Part shown: positions 3,305-9,964 of the stretch, piece after piece | Position numbering within the stretch: the stretch's first letter is position 1 | Layout: each line of letters opens with the position of its first letter | IMG/VR virus record: IMGVR_UViG_3300009610_000995 | Location: 1-20,167 of that record | Strand: one strand, 5' to 3' | Source: a virus | Length of the DNA stretch: 20,167 bases | Position numbers and translations under genes: made by a program | The notes under the pieces: model-generated | What the model was told of the DNA's origin: nothing | Seen by the model: only the letters and a program-made list of their open reading frames with translations | Databases searched by the model: none

Positions 3305-3630
3305 GGCTTTTCTTTCAAGGGCTTGGCTTGCCGATTAGGCTGGACATGCAGATGGGGATAACGGATACGGAGATCCTCGAGCACCTCCGCCGCCGCCAGC
3401 TTACTCGCCTGATCCCGCCGCCTCACCCGCACCCTGAAATCCTCGGCGATGGCCTCGAAATACACGGCCAGCCCCGACAACGCATCGTCGCCGAAGTAGG
3501 CGAGCAGATACGAAGCCTCGGCATACGCGGCGCTCCGCAGCAGATCCGGATGCGACGACGAAAGCCGCTCCCGGGACAGACCCGAGAACGGCTTGCGCGG
3601 AATCGGTTTTACCCGGTTCTCTGGCTCCAT
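3301..3630 (-). CDS. hypothetical 109-aa helical protein
   Basis: I do not recognise this 109-residue protein. It has a basic, proline-containing N-terminus and then looks almost wholly helical, with alanine-rich, acidic and arginine-rich stretches (AAYAEASYLLAYFGDD, about residues 34-49; RVRVRRRDQASKLAAAEVLE, about 66-85). The ATG at 3630 lies four bases after the stop of the upstream secreted protein. Its last dozen codons include one copy of the dispersed 12-base repeat GCTTGCCGATTA (3326-3337, plus-strand reading), so the C-terminal residues are partly dictated by that repeat. Confidence 0.68.
   Translation of the reverse strand: MEPENRVKPIPRKPFSGLSRERLSSSHPDLLRSAAYAEASYLLAYFGDDALSGLAVYFEAIAEDFRVRVRRRDQASKLAAAEVLEDLRIRYPHLHVQPNRQAKPLKEKP
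3326..3337. repeat. dispersed 12-bp repeat, copy 1
   Basis: GCTTGCCGATTA on the plus strand, 22 bases from the start of the next leftward gene and inside the 3' end of the 109-aa gene. Identical copies lie at 4194, 4503 and 6775, all in the same orientation. Confidence 0.7.
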
Positions 3631-3634
3631 GCGG

Positions 3635-4048
3635 CTAGTACACCAGCACTCCCATCACCGGAGCCATCGGATAGGCCGGCAGCACCGGCGTGTAGTAGGT
3701 CATCGCCGGACGCACCGGCGAGGGAGCATGGTACACCGGATAGCCTCCCGTGTAGGACGGCCGCGGCGCAATCACGATCGGCGCCTCGGTGGCATACGGA
3801 TTGTTGGCGGACTGATTCGAGTACGGCGAACCATACCTGCCATACGGGTTGTTGACGCTGTCGGACTGGTACGGCGAGCCATACCGCCCATACGGATTGG
3901 CGATGCTATTCGGGTCATACCGATTCGACGAGAGATTGCCGAGATACTTGCCGTCGCGGCTGACGACGATCGGAGATTGGGCCGACAGCGTGATGCCCGC
4001 GGCCAGCGCCAGTGTGCAGAACCGGCTAAAGCCAGTGATGAGTTTCAT
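3635..4048 (-). CDS. exported protein with NPYGRYGSPY repeats
   Basis: This 137-residue protein has a clear Sec signal peptide: MKLITGFSRF with a basic start, a hydrophobic core and a likely cut after LSA (about residue 23). The mature part opens with SRDGKYLGNLSSNRYDPNS, then carries two full NPYGRYGSPY repeats and a degenerate NPYAT copy (about residues 50-87), ending in a Pro/Tyr-rich tail. I know this repeat pattern from small secreted bacterial proteins of unknown function; it is unusual next to phage replication genes and may be a host-derived morphon. The ATG at 4048 follows the AAAGGATC plus AC-rich leader, which rules out the earlier in-frame TTG at 4069. A hammerhead ribozyme and a promoter precede it. 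Confidence 0.78.
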   Translation of the reverse strand: MKLITGFSRFCTLALAAGITLSAQSPIVVSRDGKYLGNLSSNRYDPNSIANPYGRYGSPYQSDSVNNPYGRYGSPYSNQSANNPYATEAPIVIAPRPSYTGGYPVYHAPSPVRPAMTYYTPVLPAYPMAPVMGVLVY

Positions 4049-4075
4049 TGTGTTGTGTGATCCTTTCAAGGTAAA

Positions 4076-4136
4076 AGCCTGTCTCTTCAGGCGCGGGAGG
4101 CTATCCCCGCGCGACCCGGAGCAGCCGGGTTTCGAC
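4076..4136 (-). ncRNA. hammerhead ribozyme (type II), copy C
   Basis: Minus-strand order: GAAA core (4133-4130); stem III CCCGG/CCGGG (4129-4125 with 4119-4115) with loop CTGCT; T4114 paired to A4130; cleavage-site C at 4113; stem I GCGCGGG/CCCGCGC (4112-4106 with 4097-4091) with loop GATAGCCT; CTGAAGA core (4090-4084). Stem II is GAC (4083-4081) with GTC (4136-4134), followed by AGGCT (4080-4076), complementary to AGCCT in the stem-I loop. All universal hammerhead core bases are present. Predicted cleavage is between 4113 and 4112, 64 bases upstream of the ATG at 4048. This copy has the best stem II of the three. Confidence 0.86.
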
Positions 4137-4147
4137 CTTTGTTCTAC

Positions 4148-4175
4148 TTTATACGCTTTTGTCTGACTTTGTACA
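4148..4175 (-). promoter_or_regulatory. candidate promoter TGTACA-16-TATAAA
   Basis: On the minus strand TGTACA (4175-4170) and TATAAA (4153-4148) are 16 bases apart. The predicted start near 4141 would put the first transcribed bases right at the stem-II strand of the hammerhead at 4076-4136. No TCTANNTAGA operator is present here. Confidence 0.5.
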
Positions 4176-4193
4176 GTTATTTCGTTGAGCTAA

Positions 4194-4205
4194 GCTTGCC
4201 GATTA
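4194..4205. repeat. dispersed 12-bp repeat, copy 2
   Basis: GCTTGCCGATTA on the plus strand. On the minus strand it supplies the TAA stop of the 26-aa reading frame at 4203-4283 and lies about 19 bases upstream of the candidate promoter at 4148-4175. Confidence 0.7.
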
Positions 4206-4283
4206 CACCCGCCGCCGCAAGCGCAGCCCGACCGGCCACAGCAGCAGCCAGAGCATGAGGCCAAACGGCCGGCGCGCGGTCAC
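4203..4283 (-). CDS. candidate 26-aa membrane peptide
   Basis: A 26-codon frame begins with GTG at 4283, overlapping the TGA stop of the upstream gene as GTGA, a classic coupling arrangement. The peptide has a basic start (TARRPFG), a single hydrophobic stretch rich in Leu and Trp (MLWLLLWPVGL, about residues 10-20) and an RRR end, so it could insert into the membrane. Its TAA stop falls inside the dispersed 12-base repeat. No family can be named for so short a frame, and it may be fortuitous; the overlap and composition are the only evidence. Confidence 0.4.
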   Translation of the reverse strand: MTARRPFGLMLWLLLWPVGLRLRRRV

Positions 4284-4462
4284 CGCTTGACCGCCGGATA
4301 GAACAGGGAATACCCGTTATCCGCCCAATTCGACCGCTTGACCGCGGCGCCCGTGCGATCCGCCTCGAGCTGAGCCGCGGCATTAGCCTGCTTCAATTCC
4401 GAGTCGCGAAACGATACCCGCTCGCCATCGACGGCGACGTAGCAATACTTCAGTTCCCGCAT
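4280..4462 (-). CDS. hypothetical 60-aa protein
   Basis: This 60-residue protein begins MRELKYCYVAVDGERVSF, a predicted beta hairpin, followed by a helix rich in Ala, Gln and Glu (SELKQANAAAQLEADRTG, about residues 21-38) and a C-terminal strand ending YSLFYPAVKR. I do not recognise the family. The ATG at 4462 was chosen because it follows a GGGAAAC site and an AC-rich spacer matching the leader of its neighbours; the frame is open further upstream, but that extension lacks a leader and would overlap the end of the 47-aa gene. It is one of several small adaptor-sized proteins in the same operon. Confidence 0.68.
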   Translation of the reverse strand: MRELKYCYVAVDGERVSFRDSELKQANAAAQLEADRTGAAVKRSNWADNGYSLFYPAVKR

Positions 4463-4502
4463 GTTGTTGTTTCCCACTTTCTGTTGAATAATCTCGAGCT
4501 GG

Positions 4503-4514
4503 GCTTGCCGATTA
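4503..4514. repeat. dispersed 12-bp repeat, copy 3
   Basis: GCTTGCCGATTA on the plus strand, in the 142-base gap between the 47-aa and 60-aa leftward genes, 41 bases upstream of the ATG at 4462. Confidence 0.7.
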
Positions 4515-4604
4515 GAAGCTCCCAATTTGCCCCAGGAACGCGCGCGCCCTTCGGGTGGCTCCGGACCCACCAGGGAGACCGCCGCAACGCCCCACGCGCT
4601 ACCC

Positions 4605-4748
4605 CTACTGCGTTTGCCAGGGATTCTCCTGGACTTCGACCTTCTCGCCATGGAGCAGATGCGCCCACGCAATATCCTGCGCATCTTCGCGCCTTATGCC
4701 GTGATACCGCGCCACGCCATTGACGTGAACCGTGTAGATTGTCTTCAT
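4605..4748 (-). CDS. hypothetical 47-aa protein
   Basis: This short gene encodes 47 residues starting MKTIYTVHVNGVARYHG, with a helix (REDAQDIAWAHLLHGE, about residues 20-35) and the end VEVQENPWQTQ. The ATG at 4748 is preceded by AAAAGGGACACACAAC, a near-perfect match to the shared leader of leftward genes, which is the main evidence that it is real. The pattern of a short beta hairpin plus one helix resembles the 60-aa protein just downstream (MRELKYCYVAVDGERV), so the two could be distant relatives. Function unknown. Confidence 0.68.
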   Translation of the reverse strand: MKTIYTVHVNGVARYHGIRREDAQDIAWAHLLHGEKVEVQENPWQTQ

Positions 4749-4821
4749 GTTGTGTGTCCCTTTTGTGCGATAGATTCGCGCCTACGCTCACCCCGCGGAT
4801 AAGCGTAATGCGAGCCCACCA

Positions 4822-5061
4822 CTAGACCAAACGCAGCGCACAGGCCAAATGCATCTCTTCATGCCCCATCGATACCACCCGCCCGCCACCATACAGACAC
4901 CACGTGCTATCCACACCCGCATAATGGCTGTGGTTGTGCACCGTCAGCGCCACACCCTGTGCGCGATAAACGCGCGTCTCGTGGTTCCGGCCTTCCATGA
5001 AGGACTCCGCTAACGTGAGTCCGTGTCTTTGCGCCAATACTTCGAAACGTATGCTTTTCAT
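4822..5061 (-). CDS. hypothetical 79-aa protein
   Basis: This 79-residue protein begins MKSIRFEVLAQRHGLTLAES and is mixed alpha/beta, with several histidines (HNHSHYAG, about residues 42-49; GHEEMHLA, about 66-73) and a Cys. The histidine-rich centre could bind a metal, but no known motif is clear. The ATG at 5061 is preceded by AAGGGAACACACAACA, the strongest form of the leftward initiation leader. It sits 36 bases after the stop of the Gp88-like gene. I do not recognise the family. Confidence 0.72.
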   Translation of the reverse strand: MKSIRFEVLAQRHGLTLAESFMEGRNHETRVYRAQGVALTVHNHSHYAGVDSTWCLYGGGRVVSMGHEEMHLACALRLV

Positions 5062-5097
5062 TGTTGTGTGTTCCCTTCTATTCCCAAATCTTCGCGC

Positions 5098-5871
5098 CTA
5101 AGCGGCCGCGCCAATCTGTATCAACTGCGATTGCACAACGAACGAACTCTGGACCTTCTTTGCCTCTCCCTTTGCCCGTAGCCCGACGATCACCCCCCGC
5201 GGATCGAGGAAACGAACGTCATGCTCATCGCCATCAATCACGCGATAACCGTTCCACGATTCAGGCAAATCTTGCCCGCGACGAGTATCAAAAACAACGG
5301 AGACATTCACGCCATGCGCCAGAGCCTCGAGACACTCCGCCAGATTCTCCCCGCTGTACGAAAACGTCAGCTGATAGTTGTAACGCGTCCGCAACCACGA
5401 TTTCGGCAACTTCGTGTAATCGTAGAACATCACCTGCGGAAACTCGCGTGCCATCATCATCGCCACCCAAGGCAAATCAGAAGTCCCGTTAAAGCGAACG
5501 GCCGGCTTCAATCCCTCCCTCTCCGCTTCCCGTATCAATGCCTTGATATCCCTCCGCAACGCATTCAGAAACGACTCGCGATCCTCCCACAACCAAACCG
5601 TCTTCCCAATCCGTGCCCGCTTGATCTCAGGAAATATCTTCGATCGACCGCTGTCATACAGACATGCTTCGATGCATCCCTCCGTAGCGAACGTACAAAC
5701 ATTCATCACCCCAGATTCATTCGCCGGCGCCAAATAGCAGATACCCGTCAATACCCCTAAACTCTCTCCCTTGATCGTCTTGGCGTTCTGTGTCTGCAAC
5801 ACAGCCCCGCGCTTGTACCCTTCCTGATACCCTGCTACTACCGCCGACCGCAACCCTTCAATAAATCCCAC
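5098..5871 (-). CDS. Gp88-like phage protein
   Basis: This 257-residue protein matches the phage Gene Product 88 family known from mycobacteriophages and many metagenomic phages. The diagnostic stretch is GVLTGICYLAPANESGVMNVC followed by EGCIEACLYDSGR (about residues 39-76), giving a C59-x6-C66-x3-C70 cysteine cluster. Later conserved-looking blocks are VRFNGTSDLPW (125-135), FYDYTKLPKSW and LRTRYNYQLTFSYSGEN. The family has no proven function; the cysteine cluster suggests metal or cluster binding. The start is GTG at 5871, chosen because AAGGGA lies eight bases upstream, right after the hammerhead element at 5886-5939. Confidence 0.85.
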   Translation of the reverse strand: MGFIEGLRSAVVAGYQEGYKRGAVLQTQNAKTIKGESLGVLTGICYLAPANESGVMNVCTFATEGCIEACLYDSGRSKIFPEIKRARIGKTVWLWEDRESFLNALRRDIKALIREAEREGLKPAVRFNGTSDLPWVAMMMAREFPQVMFYDYTKLPKSWLRTRYNYQLTFSYSGENLAECLEALAHGVNVSVVFDTRRGQDLPESWNGYRVIDGDEHDVRFLDPRGVIVGLRAKGEAKKVQSSFVVQSQLIQIGAAA

Positions 5872-5885
5872 TGTTCTAATCCCTT

Positions 5886-5939
5886 AGCCTGATCTTCAGA
5901 CCACGGAGGCTATCCCGTGATGACGCCCGTAGGCGTTTC
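5886..5939 (-). ncRNA. hammerhead ribozyme (type II), copy B
   Basis: Minus-strand order: GAAA (5939-5936); stem III CGCC/GGCG (5935-5932 with 5927-5924) capped by TACG, a UNCG-type tetraloop; T5923 paired to A5936; cleavage-site C at 5922; stem I ATCACGG/CCGTGGT (5921-5915 with 5906-5900) with loop GATAGCCT; CTGAAGA (5899-5893); then TCAGGCT. AGGCT (5890-5886) complements AGCCT of the stem-I loop. Stem II next to the core is weak. It begins six bases after the stop of the 73-aa gene and ends beside the AAGGGA ribosome binding site of the Gp88-like gene. Cleavage is predicted between 5922 and 5921. Confidence 0.84.
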
Positions 5940-5944
5940 ACTCC

Positions 5945-6166
5945 CTATAACGCCCGGTACCGTGCCGCAAAATGCATCTCCAAACGCAACAACGGTCCAT
6001 ACGCTTCCACGTCTATTCCCGGCTCTGCCTTCGCTTCCCGGATCAGTGAAAGCATCCACATCAGCGCCTTCTTCTCATCCATAACCTTCGCTCCCGTCTC
6101 CGCTTGCCACGCCTTCAGCAGCCCTTCCCTCGTCAACGTCGCCTTCATCCAAAATGCCTTGTTCAT
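5945..6166 (-). CDS. hypothetical 73-aa protein
   Basis: This 73-residue protein is largely helical: MNKAFWMKATLTREGLLKAW, then MDEKKALMWMLSLIREAKAE (about residues 29-48), an acidic loop (PGIDVEAYGP) and a final helix LLRLEMHFAARYRAL. No cysteines, signal peptide or membrane segment. I do not recognise it. The ATG at 6166 follows AGGGAACACACACAA, the canonical leftward leader. It is bracketed by two hammerhead elements (copies A and B), so self-cleavage at both would release it as its own monocistronic RNA. Confidence 0.72.
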   Translation of the reverse strand: MNKAFWMKATLTREGLLKAWQAETGAKVMDEKKALMWMLSLIREAKAEPGIDVEAYGPLLRLEMHFAARYRAL

Positions 6167-6184
6167 TTGTGTGTGTTCCCTATC

Positions 6185-6238
6185 AGCCTGATCTTCAGTG
6201 CACAGAGGCTATCCTGCGCAGACGCCCAAAGGCGTTTC
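6185..6238 (-). ncRNA. hammerhead ribozyme (type II), copy A
   Basis: Minus-strand order: GAAA (6238-6235), starting one base after the upstream stop; stem III CGCC/GGCG (6234-6231 with 6226-6223) with loop TTTG; T6222 paired to A6235; cleavage-site C at 6221; stem I TGCGCAG/CTGTGCA (6220-6214 with 6205-6199) with loop GATAGCCT; CTGAAGA (6198-6192); then TCAGGCT. AGGCT (6189-6185) complements AGCCT in the stem-I loop (6210-6206). Stem I differs from copy B but stays paired. TCAGGC could alternatively pair with GCCTGA in the end of the upstream gene. Cleavage is predicted between 6221 and 6220. Confidence 0.84.
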
Positions 6239-6239
6239 A

Positions 6240-6458
6240 CTATTCAGGCAACTCCAATCCACGCGCGTCGAGCATCTCCTGCAACGGCATCTCCTGCTGA
6301 AACTCCTCTGCCTTCAACTCCACGCGCGTCCCATATACCGCCTCTAGTTCTATCTCCAACTCCGCCGTCGCCGCCCACAACGCCTCTTGCGCTTCCGCCG
6401 CTATCCTCAGCAATTCGTATGCTTTCGTCAATCGCTTGTCATGTGCTGTGTTGTTCAT
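6240..6458 (-). CDS. hypothetical 72-aa helical protein
   Basis: This 72-residue protein appears wholly helical and acidic: MNNTAHDKRLTKAYELLRIA, then alanine/glutamate-rich repeats (EAQEALWAATAELEIELEAV, about residues 22-41), and a C-terminal EFQQEMPLQEMLDARGLEL. It could form a coiled coil. No family is recognised. It is the first gene of the leftward operon starting from the promoter at 6465-6493. No Shine-Dalgarno site precedes the ATG at 6458, and the -10 box ends only six bases upstream, so translation from a leaderless mRNA is likely. Its stop codon is immediately followed by hammerhead copy A. Confidence 0.7.
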   Translation of the reverse strand: MNNTAHDKRLTKAYELLRIAAEAQEALWAATAELEIELEAVYGTRVELKAEEFQQEMPLQEMLDARGLELPE

Positions 6459-6464
6459 ATTCAG

Positions 6465-6493
6465 ATAGTAACTTGAACCTCTATCTAGAACAA
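6465..6493 (-). promoter_or_regulatory. promoter TTGTTC-17-TACTAT, leaderless
   Basis: On the minus strand TTGTTC (6493-6488) and TACTAT (6470-6465) are 17 bases apart. The predicted transcription start coincides with the ATG at 6458. An operator palindrome TCTATCTAGA (6480-6489) overlaps the -35 end and spacer, as in the two other leftward operator promoters. Confidence 0.66.
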
Positions 6494-6526
6494 TAGGACT
6501 TAGGTACTGTTTTGAGATTACCTACA
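6480..6526. promoter_or_regulatory. operator cluster, third copy
   Basis: TCTATCTAGA (6480-6489) is followed 19 bases later by CTTAGGTACT (6499-6508, core TAGGTA kept) and 18 bases later by ATTACCTACA (6517-6526, the inverted form of the core). The 19-base first step matches the clusters at 712, 1834 and 9967. The outer sites are weaker than in the other clusters. Confidence 0.55.
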
Positions 6527-8257: not shown

Positions 8258-9964
8258 TCACTCCCCGGCGATCTTCTCTTCGGCGAACTGGCAGAAGAAC
8301 GAGCAGGAGAAGTTCAGCTCGCCCCCGCGTTTGCCGGGTCCGGGCGGCAATTCGGCGAGGCTCATCCGCTCGCCTTCCCGTGGCCCCGAGCGGTGCTGCA
8401 GGAAGTAGGCGCCTTCGCCGATCTCTTCCTGGATCTTCTTCACCGCGGCAAAGCGTTCCGGGAAATCGGCGCGGATGGCCTGCCAGTAGGACTGGCCGCC
8501 CTTGGGGCAGCCGAGGCAATTGCCGGTGAGGATGTTGCCTTCGAGCGTAAAGGCTTGCCCCTCCGGCACCACCGCGCAGAACACCTCTTCGACCCGCTCG
8601 GTTGGTTCCACCGATACCACGATCCACGGATGCGGCTCGCGCGGGTTCGACCACAGGAAGCGCCGCCGGTGCTCTTCGATGAGAAAGAAATCCTCGCGCA
8701 GGGTGTCTCCGATCAACGAGAGCGAGTAGAGCGCCGACTCCTCGCGCCCGGCAAAGCCGCGCCGCATCACCTTCCGGATGGAGTTGACGCCGATCCCCAA
8801 GCGAATGGCCACGTTCCGCGCGAATTCCACATGCGTGTAGTTAGCCGAGGATAGGGTGTAATCTCCTCGCTCGGACACGCAGCCATCGGCGGCGAAGTAT
8901 CCAGCTAGCCACCCGTATAGGTAGCTCTGGCACTCCTCGAGCGGGGGTAGATCCTTCCAGTGCCTCGGCAGATCCTTCACCTCGATCCCAGCTTGGGAGG
9001 GACGAGTGGGGCTGAGTGGAAAGTAGCGGAGGAGTTCGCGGTCCTTCTCGCCGCACAGGACCACCGTCCCGGCCGTATTCAACGTACTCTGGCGCGAGCC
9101 GTCCCCGAAGACGATCCCTTGGGCAATCCCGAAGGCCGAGGGCCGCACGCGCGCTCCTAGGCGGCCGAACACGCTCCGCAGCCGGTCGCCCGGTCTCAGT
9201 TCCTCGGTAGTGCGCTCGAGTTTGGCCGCGTGCACGTACTGCTTGACGAACCAGCGATGGCCCGCCGTAGCGAAGATGACCTTCTCGGTAGAGTTGCGCC
9301 GAACAGACAGTTTCATCAACGGCTGCTCGCCGAAGGAGTGGATCGAGGCTTCTTCCCACCCGCCCCCGGCTCCCCGCACTCGCACGGTCTCCCCCACGGC
9401 AGCGCCCAGCGTCCGGACCCCCATGTCCGTCAGGAATTCGGTGTCGCCCGAAAAACAATTCGCATTGTCGTAGCCGAGTTCGTACATGATGGGGATGCGG
9501 AGGCCGGCGCGCTCCACGATGGCGAGGCAATCGCCTTTGTCTAAGCCCTCCTCGATCAGCGGCGCCCGGAATGTCTCATCCGGGTAAAGGTCTTGGAGAT
9601 TCGAGAAGCGGTCTTCTTCCTCGCGCGTGAAGCCGAATACCGACACGTCGCCCGGCAACATGATCTTTTTGAGCAGCTTGCGCTTCAGCTCCTGCGAGCA
9701 CGGCGCCCCGTTCGGCCCCTTGATGTAGCGCTTCCTCTTCCACACCTCGTCGGTCGACGCTCCGTAGGTTTCGTCCCGCAGCACCGTCACAGGGTGGCCA
9801 AACCAGGTTTCGCAGTCGGCGAGGAACCGCCGGTTGTCCGGGTGCTCCTCCACGAGGAACGCATTCACGATCACCACGTCATTGTGATCCTGTTCGGCTA
9901 GGATCAGTTTAGTCGCCACCGCCGAGGCCGCGCCGCACGAGAACTGGCATACGTACCTGGACAT
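8258..9964 (-). CDS. PAPS reductase-like protein containing an intein
   Basis: This 568-residue precursor is a phage PAPS-reductase-like PP-loop protein split by an intein. The N-extein (1-169) has the loop QFSCGAASAVATKL (7-20), EEHPDNRRFLADC (39-51), KGPNGAPCSQELK (82-94) and ends GYDNAN. The intein spans C170 to N482. The C-extein (483-568) starts CLGCPKGGQSYW and ends near CSFFC. Splicing would join GYDNAN to CLGC and give a 255-residue enzyme of normal length for the family; the insertion sits exactly at the conserved cysteine pair. Substrate unknown. The ATG at 9964 has AGGTGG about 11 bases upstream and faces a divergent promoter carrying an operator palindrome. Confidence 0.9.
   Translation of the reverse strand: MSRYVCQFSCGAASAVATKLILAEQDHNDVVIVNAFLVEEHPDNRRFLADCETWFGHPVTVLRDETYGASTDEVWKRKRYIKGPNGAPCSQELKRKLLKKIMLPGDVSVFGFTREEEDRFSNLQDLYPDETFRAPLIEEGLDKGDCLAIVERAGLRIPIMYELGYDNANCFSGDTEFLTDMGVRTLGAAVGETVRVRGAGGGWEEASIHSFGEQPLMKLSVRRNSTEKVIFATAGHRWFVKQYVHAAKLERTTEELRPGDRLRSVFGRLGARVRPSAFGIAQGIVFGDGSRQSTLNTAGTVVLCGEKDRELLRYFPLSPTRPSQAGIEVKDLPRHWKDLPPLEECQSYLYGWLAGYFAADGCVSERGDYTLSSANYTHVEFARNVAIRLGIGVNSIRKVMRRGFAGREESALYSLSLIGDTLREDFFLIEEHRRRFLWSNPREPHPWIVVSVEPTERVEEVFCAVVPEGQAFTLEGNILTGNCLGCPKGGQSYWQAIRADFPERFAAVKKIQEEIGEGAYFLQHRSGPREGERMSLAELPPGPGKRGGELNFSCSFFCQFAEEKIAGE
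8519..9457 (-). mobile_element. LAGLIDADG homing-endonuclease intein (313 aa)
   Basis: The intein begins CFSGDTEFLTD (block A, catalytic C170) and has the block B motif ATAGHRWF (TxxH, residues 232-239). Two LAGLIDADG-type motifs follow, IAQGIVFGDGS (280-290) and LYGWLAGYFAADG (349-361). It ends VVPEGQAFTLEGNILTGN followed by the +1 Cys. The terminal Asn (N482) is present but the usual penultimate His is Gly. Splice residues C1, TxxH, N and +1 Cys are all in place, so splicing is plausible. The endonuclease motifs look intact, which suggests it is still able to home. Confidence 0.9.

Follow-up and report, generated by a model that had tools for sequence, protein, structure and literature searches.

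The window analysed here, meaning the whole stretch of 20,167 bases of viral DNA, carries terminase and portal-like genes. Its minus strand also encodes three type II hammerhead ribozymes, each in a gap between leftward genes. Rfam reports one Hammerhead_II (RF02276) above its curated cut-off of 37 bits (C, 4137-4073 minus, 37.5 bits) and two further ones at a looser limit (A, 5943-5883 minus, 32.7 bits, E 7.3e-7; B, 6242-6182 minus, 28.9 bits, E 7.3e-6; E-values computed within this record). A separate motif scan recovers the same three. The genes and ribozymes are listed below in the direction of transcription.

6240..6458, minus strand: 72-aa ORF preceding B, with a TAG stop (6242-6240) that overlaps ribozyme B
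6184..6240, minus strand: type II hammerhead B (RF02276 and motif scan); GAAA from 6238, stem III 6235-6222, C17 at 6221, predicted cut 6221/6220, stem I 6220-6199, core 6198-6192
6206..6213, minus strand: loop I of B, GATAGCCT (from the sequence)
6185..6189, minus strand: pseudoknot 3′ strand of B, AGGCT (from the sequence)
5945..6166, minus strand: 73-aa ORF lying between the two ribozymes B and A; 5 nt separate the end of its TAG stop (5947-5945) from the GAAA of A
5885..5941, minus strand: type II hammerhead A (RF02276 and motif scan); GAAA from 5939, stem III 5936-5923, C17 at 5922, predicted cut 5922/5921, stem I 5921-5900, core CTGAAGA 5899-5893; stem II a U-U (5892/5940) and a single C-G (5891/5941)
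5907..5914, minus strand: loop I of A, GATAGCCT (from the sequence and covariation); 5911-5907 pairs with 5890-5886
5885..5890, minus strand: pseudoknot 3′ strand of A, AGGCTA, of which AGGCT is 5890-5886 (from the sequence)
5098..5871, minus strand: GP88-family gene directly downstream of A (PF17338, E 1.3e-43)
4076..4136, minus strand: type II hammerhead C (RF02276); stem II of 3 bp (GTC 4136-4134 / GAC 4083-4081), C17 at 4113, predicted cut 4113/4112
4098..4105, minus strand: loop I of C, GATAGCCT (from the sequence)
4076..4080, minus strand: pseudoknot 3′ strand of C, AGGCT (from the sequence)
3635..4069, minus strand: ORF downstream of C, likely really starting at ATG 4048; without a family match

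The virus has no close named phage that we could find, since all matches of the window's terminase to phages lie below 60% identity; a blastn search of positions 3600-6500 against phages returned weak matches alone, to six Mycobacterium phage records and all within the GP88 gene. Elsewhere in the window, a PAPS-reductase-like ORF (8258-9964 minus) matches its family at residues 3-171, then runs through a long unmatched stretch into a tail resembling the second half of such a protein, which makes an intein-like insert possible.

Anatomy of the three ribozymes

All three copies contain the core CUGANGA ... GAAA ... A15.1-U16.1 with H17, closed stems I and III and an open stem II, and with the Rfam Hammerhead_II match at each site, one of them above the cut-off, their identity as hammerheads holds. 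The sequence-only reading that led to this analysis spanned 5886-6213, from the 3′ strand of A to the loop of B, and so omitted the 5′ half of B and the whole of C. It was right that the loop GATAGCCT is identical in A, B and C despite differing stems: stem I has 7 bp in every copy, with letters that covary between copies (ATCACGG/CCGTGGT, TGCGCAG/CTGTGCA and GCGCGGG/CCCGCGC, respectively). The loop sequence GATAGCCT also occurs once on the plus strand, near position 3739, outside any hammerhead. Likewise as claimed, AGCCT of the loop is the exact complement of AGGCT in the tail, giving five pairs in every copy, with an extra U-A in A and an extra U-G in B. Because the three copies have the same loop and tail, they count as one instance and not as three.

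The stem II of A and B is indeed very weak, consisting of a U-U at 10.1/11.1, one C-G pair and then an A-A; in B the sole Watson-Crick pair uses the G (6240) of the upstream TAG stop. Copy C has G-C at 10.1/11.1, a position that is a consensus pair and not a strict requirement. The scores of A and B illustrate that Rfam matches below the threshold can be genuine members of Hammerhead_II.

Covariation in relatives carrying the GP88 gene

Two virus contigs carry a relative of the GP88 gene with 93% protein identity, and in both a hammerhead lies just before it. Its loop and tail read GTTAGCGG and TCACGCTAA, where A has GATAGCCT and TCAGGCTAA. Comparing related sequences for complementarity, we found that loop and tail had changed together: the pair between loop position 14 and tail position 4 is C-G in A and G-C in both relatives, and six Watson-Crick pairs are kept in both. 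At the ends of the pseudoknot, T-A becomes G-A, which costs one pair, and A-A becomes T-A, which adds one. The U-U mismatch is also conserved in both relatives.

At the position of C the two relatives hold a hammerhead-like element for which Rfam gives no call, with the core TTGATAA (C3U together with G8A) and the tail GACAGGCT. This core recurs in loci L257 and L467, where loop and tail are complementary over a long stretch, and it fits the U3-A8 variant described in the accessible text of PMC3088659. The joint C3U and G8A change (TTGANAA) with a retained pseudoknot in L655:4920-4990, L656:5106-5175, L257 and L467 is a known rare variant.

A survey of hammerheads in virus contigs

For a wider view, patterns with a fixed stem III and a free loop and tail were run across virus contigs, along with one extra scan that fixed the loop; the survey set is a sample, among the matches listed, obtained from four stem III seed sequences or from the loop. 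Limits on stems and length cut the 834 unique candidates among the matches listed to 777, and one more was dropped for lacking upstream flank, leaving 776. Decoy cores yielded 2-28 candidates against 813 for the true core among the matches listed. At least four consecutive Watson-Crick loop-tail pairs are present in 52.4% of the 777 among the matches listed, compared with a mean of 16.2% when tails are shuffled, and at least five in 30.4% compared with a mean of 4.2% (maximum 5.8% in 200 shuffles). DNA taken 15 nt further downstream as a control gives at least five pairs in 1.5% of the same 777 ribozymes among the matches listed. For A itself, 0.08% of 5000 letter shuffles match the energy of the loop-tail duplex.

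Covariation is also seen in 113 non-redundant ribozymes among the matches listed that have a 22-nt stem-I hairpin and a 3-bp stem II and lack the seed loop: 69.0% of predicted-pair cells are Watson-Crick against 43.9% shuffled (maximum 47.8% of 1000), slid registers give 25-30%, and each of loop positions 11-14 shows three or four pair types. A bulged class (n=50, among the matches listed) gives 56.0% against 42.2% shuffled. The class with a 2-bp stem II behaves differently. Its 47 non-redundant members among the matches listed reach 25.9% in the register of A and B against 28.2% shuffled, and the best of their slid registers gives 49%. The register thus differs between subclasses; the one used in A and B finds support in their own relatives and in few other ribozymes. 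A scan for the U-U subclass (GTGAAAC...CTGANGATC) returned 63 stretches, of which 11 rows were assessed and four (L595, L596, L633, L615) judged not convincing for poor stem III and runs of 2-3 pairs; at least four pairs occur in six of the seven convincing rows, two of them the GP88 relatives, and L622 has three. Together, the covariation in the relatives and in the 113 non-redundant ribozymes makes the proposed reading of the pseudoknot as a tertiary contact between stems I and II well supported at the sequence level.

In loci seeded on stem III only, 374 of 485 ribozymes with a stem-I hairpin of at least 19 nt show at least four pairs, among the matches listed. The contact is not universal. 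A separate class of 279 survey ribozymes among the matches listed has a stem-I hairpin of 17-18 nt; a run of four pairs is present in 21 of them and absent in 258. A group of 223 ribozymes among the matches listed has a 17-nt stem-I hairpin with a loop near GTNANGC, mostly a 4-bp stem II, and lacks the pseudoknot; these probably use another tertiary contact.

It had also been suggested that the pseudoknot replaces the weak stem II of A and B. Of the ribozymes with a 22-nt stem-I hairpin among the matches listed, those with a 2-bp stem II have at least four consecutive pairs in 67% of cases (n=52), those with 3 bp in 86% (n=139) and those with 4 bp in 92% (n=13). A shorter stem II brings no increase in frequency and replacement is rejected; the pseudoknot accompanies stem II instead of substituting for it.

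A separate array was seen in Marinithermofilum abyssi (NZ_BMHQ01000020.1, L660:7054-7910), where seven type II hammerheads, each scoring above the Rfam cut-off, form tandem units of ~128 nt with G-rich spacers and without an obvious gene, directly after an HNH-like ORF. Hammerheads beyond these seven were not found in that genome. If active, the array would release RNAs of ~128 nt.

Position of upstream stop codons

The two TAG stops at 6242-6240 and 5947-5945 have many counterparts, as across virus loci among the matches listed the upstream stop abuts or enters stem II far above chance. The layout was scored as the stop of a frame of at least 40 codons no more than 60 nt upstream plus a start with a Shine-Dalgarno-like site no more than 70 nt downstream, and was found in 550 of the 730 ribozymes with enough flank among the matches listed, against 278 of 3650 random places. 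A gene ends between -150 and +70 of the GAAA in 494 of 609 ribozymes with distinct upstream DNA (among the matches listed), 259 of these ends lying at -5 to -1, 97 at -10 to -6 and 36 at 0 or beyond. Stop triplets at -3/-2 close a frame of at least 60 codons in 243 of 305 cases among the matches listed (background 5182/22398), and with one ribozyme per locus such a stop lies at -8 to -1 in 231 of 342 among the matches listed.

The layout may come from tight packing of genes or from a coupling of termination to cleavage, and genome compactness alone could produce it. On the second idea, which we regard as unlikely, type II ribozymes are placed so that the stop abuts or enters stem II; a ribosome terminating there would cover the core, so that termination would gate cleavage, and the pseudoknot would let stem II shrink to one pair that shares a base with the stop, as in B. 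We recognised no earlier description of the layout in the openly accessible literature, judged by titles and the beginnings of abstracts, and the phrase 'stop codon' is absent from the main text of PMC3088659; the regularity is possibly unreported. If functional, it would offer a direct test of the long-open role of phage hammerheads, namely whether upstream translation controls the cut.

Proposed role and alternative explanations

The reading that we favour, with a probability of about 0.93, is that A, B and C are type II hammerheads with a loop-tail pseudoknot that cut a phage transcript between genes. Stems I and III would form hairpins beside a short, open stem II, and loop I would pair with the tail just past stem II in a pseudoknot that keeps stems I and II next to each other. 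The predicted self-cut after C17 would split a long phage transcript into single-gene messages, the upstream fragment ending in the stem III hairpin and the downstream fragment beginning with a 5′-OH, stem I and the pseudoknot, followed by a ribosome-binding site. That A, B and C cut, and the purpose of the cut, we infer; the likely role is the cutting of polycistronic phage mRNA between genes. Anatomy, conservation, covariation and gene layout were obtained here, and cleavage, the need for the pseudoknot and cleavage in E. coli come from the work of others on other type II ribozymes.

The pseudoknot would sit in the downstream product and touch a Shine-Dalgarno-like site; in A, AGGCTA adjoins the AAGGG of the GP88 gene. 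It might accordingly be mainly a stable 5′ end or a translation element on the cut message and not an accelerator of cleavage, an idea that we hold to be rather improbable given the direct rate effect of mutants published in the accessible text of PMC3088659.

The core CTGA can also pair with the tail TCAG in A (5899-5888 minus) and B (6198-6187 minus), and the nested folds of both include this CUGA-AGA-UCAG hairpin; in A it is the minimum-energy nested fold in place of the hammerhead. By rough sums without pseudoknot penalties, the nested fold compares with hairpins I and III plus the loop-tail duplex at -24.2 against about -23.8 kcal/mol in A, -22.1 against -23.8 in B and -32.4 against -31.1 in C. 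A and B could then be decayed or switchable, the hairpin trapping core and tail so that the ribozyme stays off until the core is freed, and the UCAG tail does recur in L601, L606 and L636 of the U-U subclass. However, GAAA, CTGANGA, UH and the stems are intact, the orthologue is conserved, the tail UCAC of a relative shortens the hairpin, and UCAG may be no more than a consequence of combining the C-G pair with the pseudoknot strand. We therefore consider decay or switching improbable enough to carry little weight.

That the complementarity is a coincidence kept by recent duplication of the three copies would suit a loop and tail identical in all three, hence one observation within the window, but it is already refuted by the covariation, as relatives change both strands together and hundreds of unrelated loop/tail pairs among the matches listed remain complementary, and its chance is negligible.

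Comparison with known type II hammerheads

According to the accessible text of Perreault et al. 2011 (PMC3088659), in the majority of type II hammerheads loop I forms a pseudoknot with the tail that follows stem II, and kinetics of compensatory mutants showed that it is required and directly affects the rate. The same source reports that type II ribozymes cleave in E. coli and phage-type arrays cleave in vivo, that type II clusters flank phage genes and probably cut long transcripts, and that a U10.1-U11.1 mismatch with a weak one-pair stem II as well as U3-A8 covariation occur in nature. A figure legend in the review PMC6155905 describes type II tertiary interactions as usually Watson-Crick pairs.

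The suggestion of a distinctive hammerhead variant is accordingly set aside, as the loop-tail pseudoknot is the standard type II contact published in 2011, and the accessible text of the same paper also covers the U-U mismatch, the U3-A8 core and a stem II of one pair. Relative to RF02276 and that text, the ribozymes of the window share the core, the closed stems I and III, the open short stem II, a loop I-tail pseudoknot of at least four pairs (here 5-6), clustering between phage genes and the U10.1-U11.1 mismatch (A and B); the U3-A8 covariation is likewise described there. No difference of principle separates them, A and B falling below the Rfam cut-off, and none was found from the type II hammerheads in the accessible part of PMC6155905. 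With the pseudoknot already described in PMC3088659, the finding is a correct rediscovery: the pseudoknot in the window is real, well supported and ordinary, and a published tertiary contact is confirmed across a large set of virus sequences among the matches listed.
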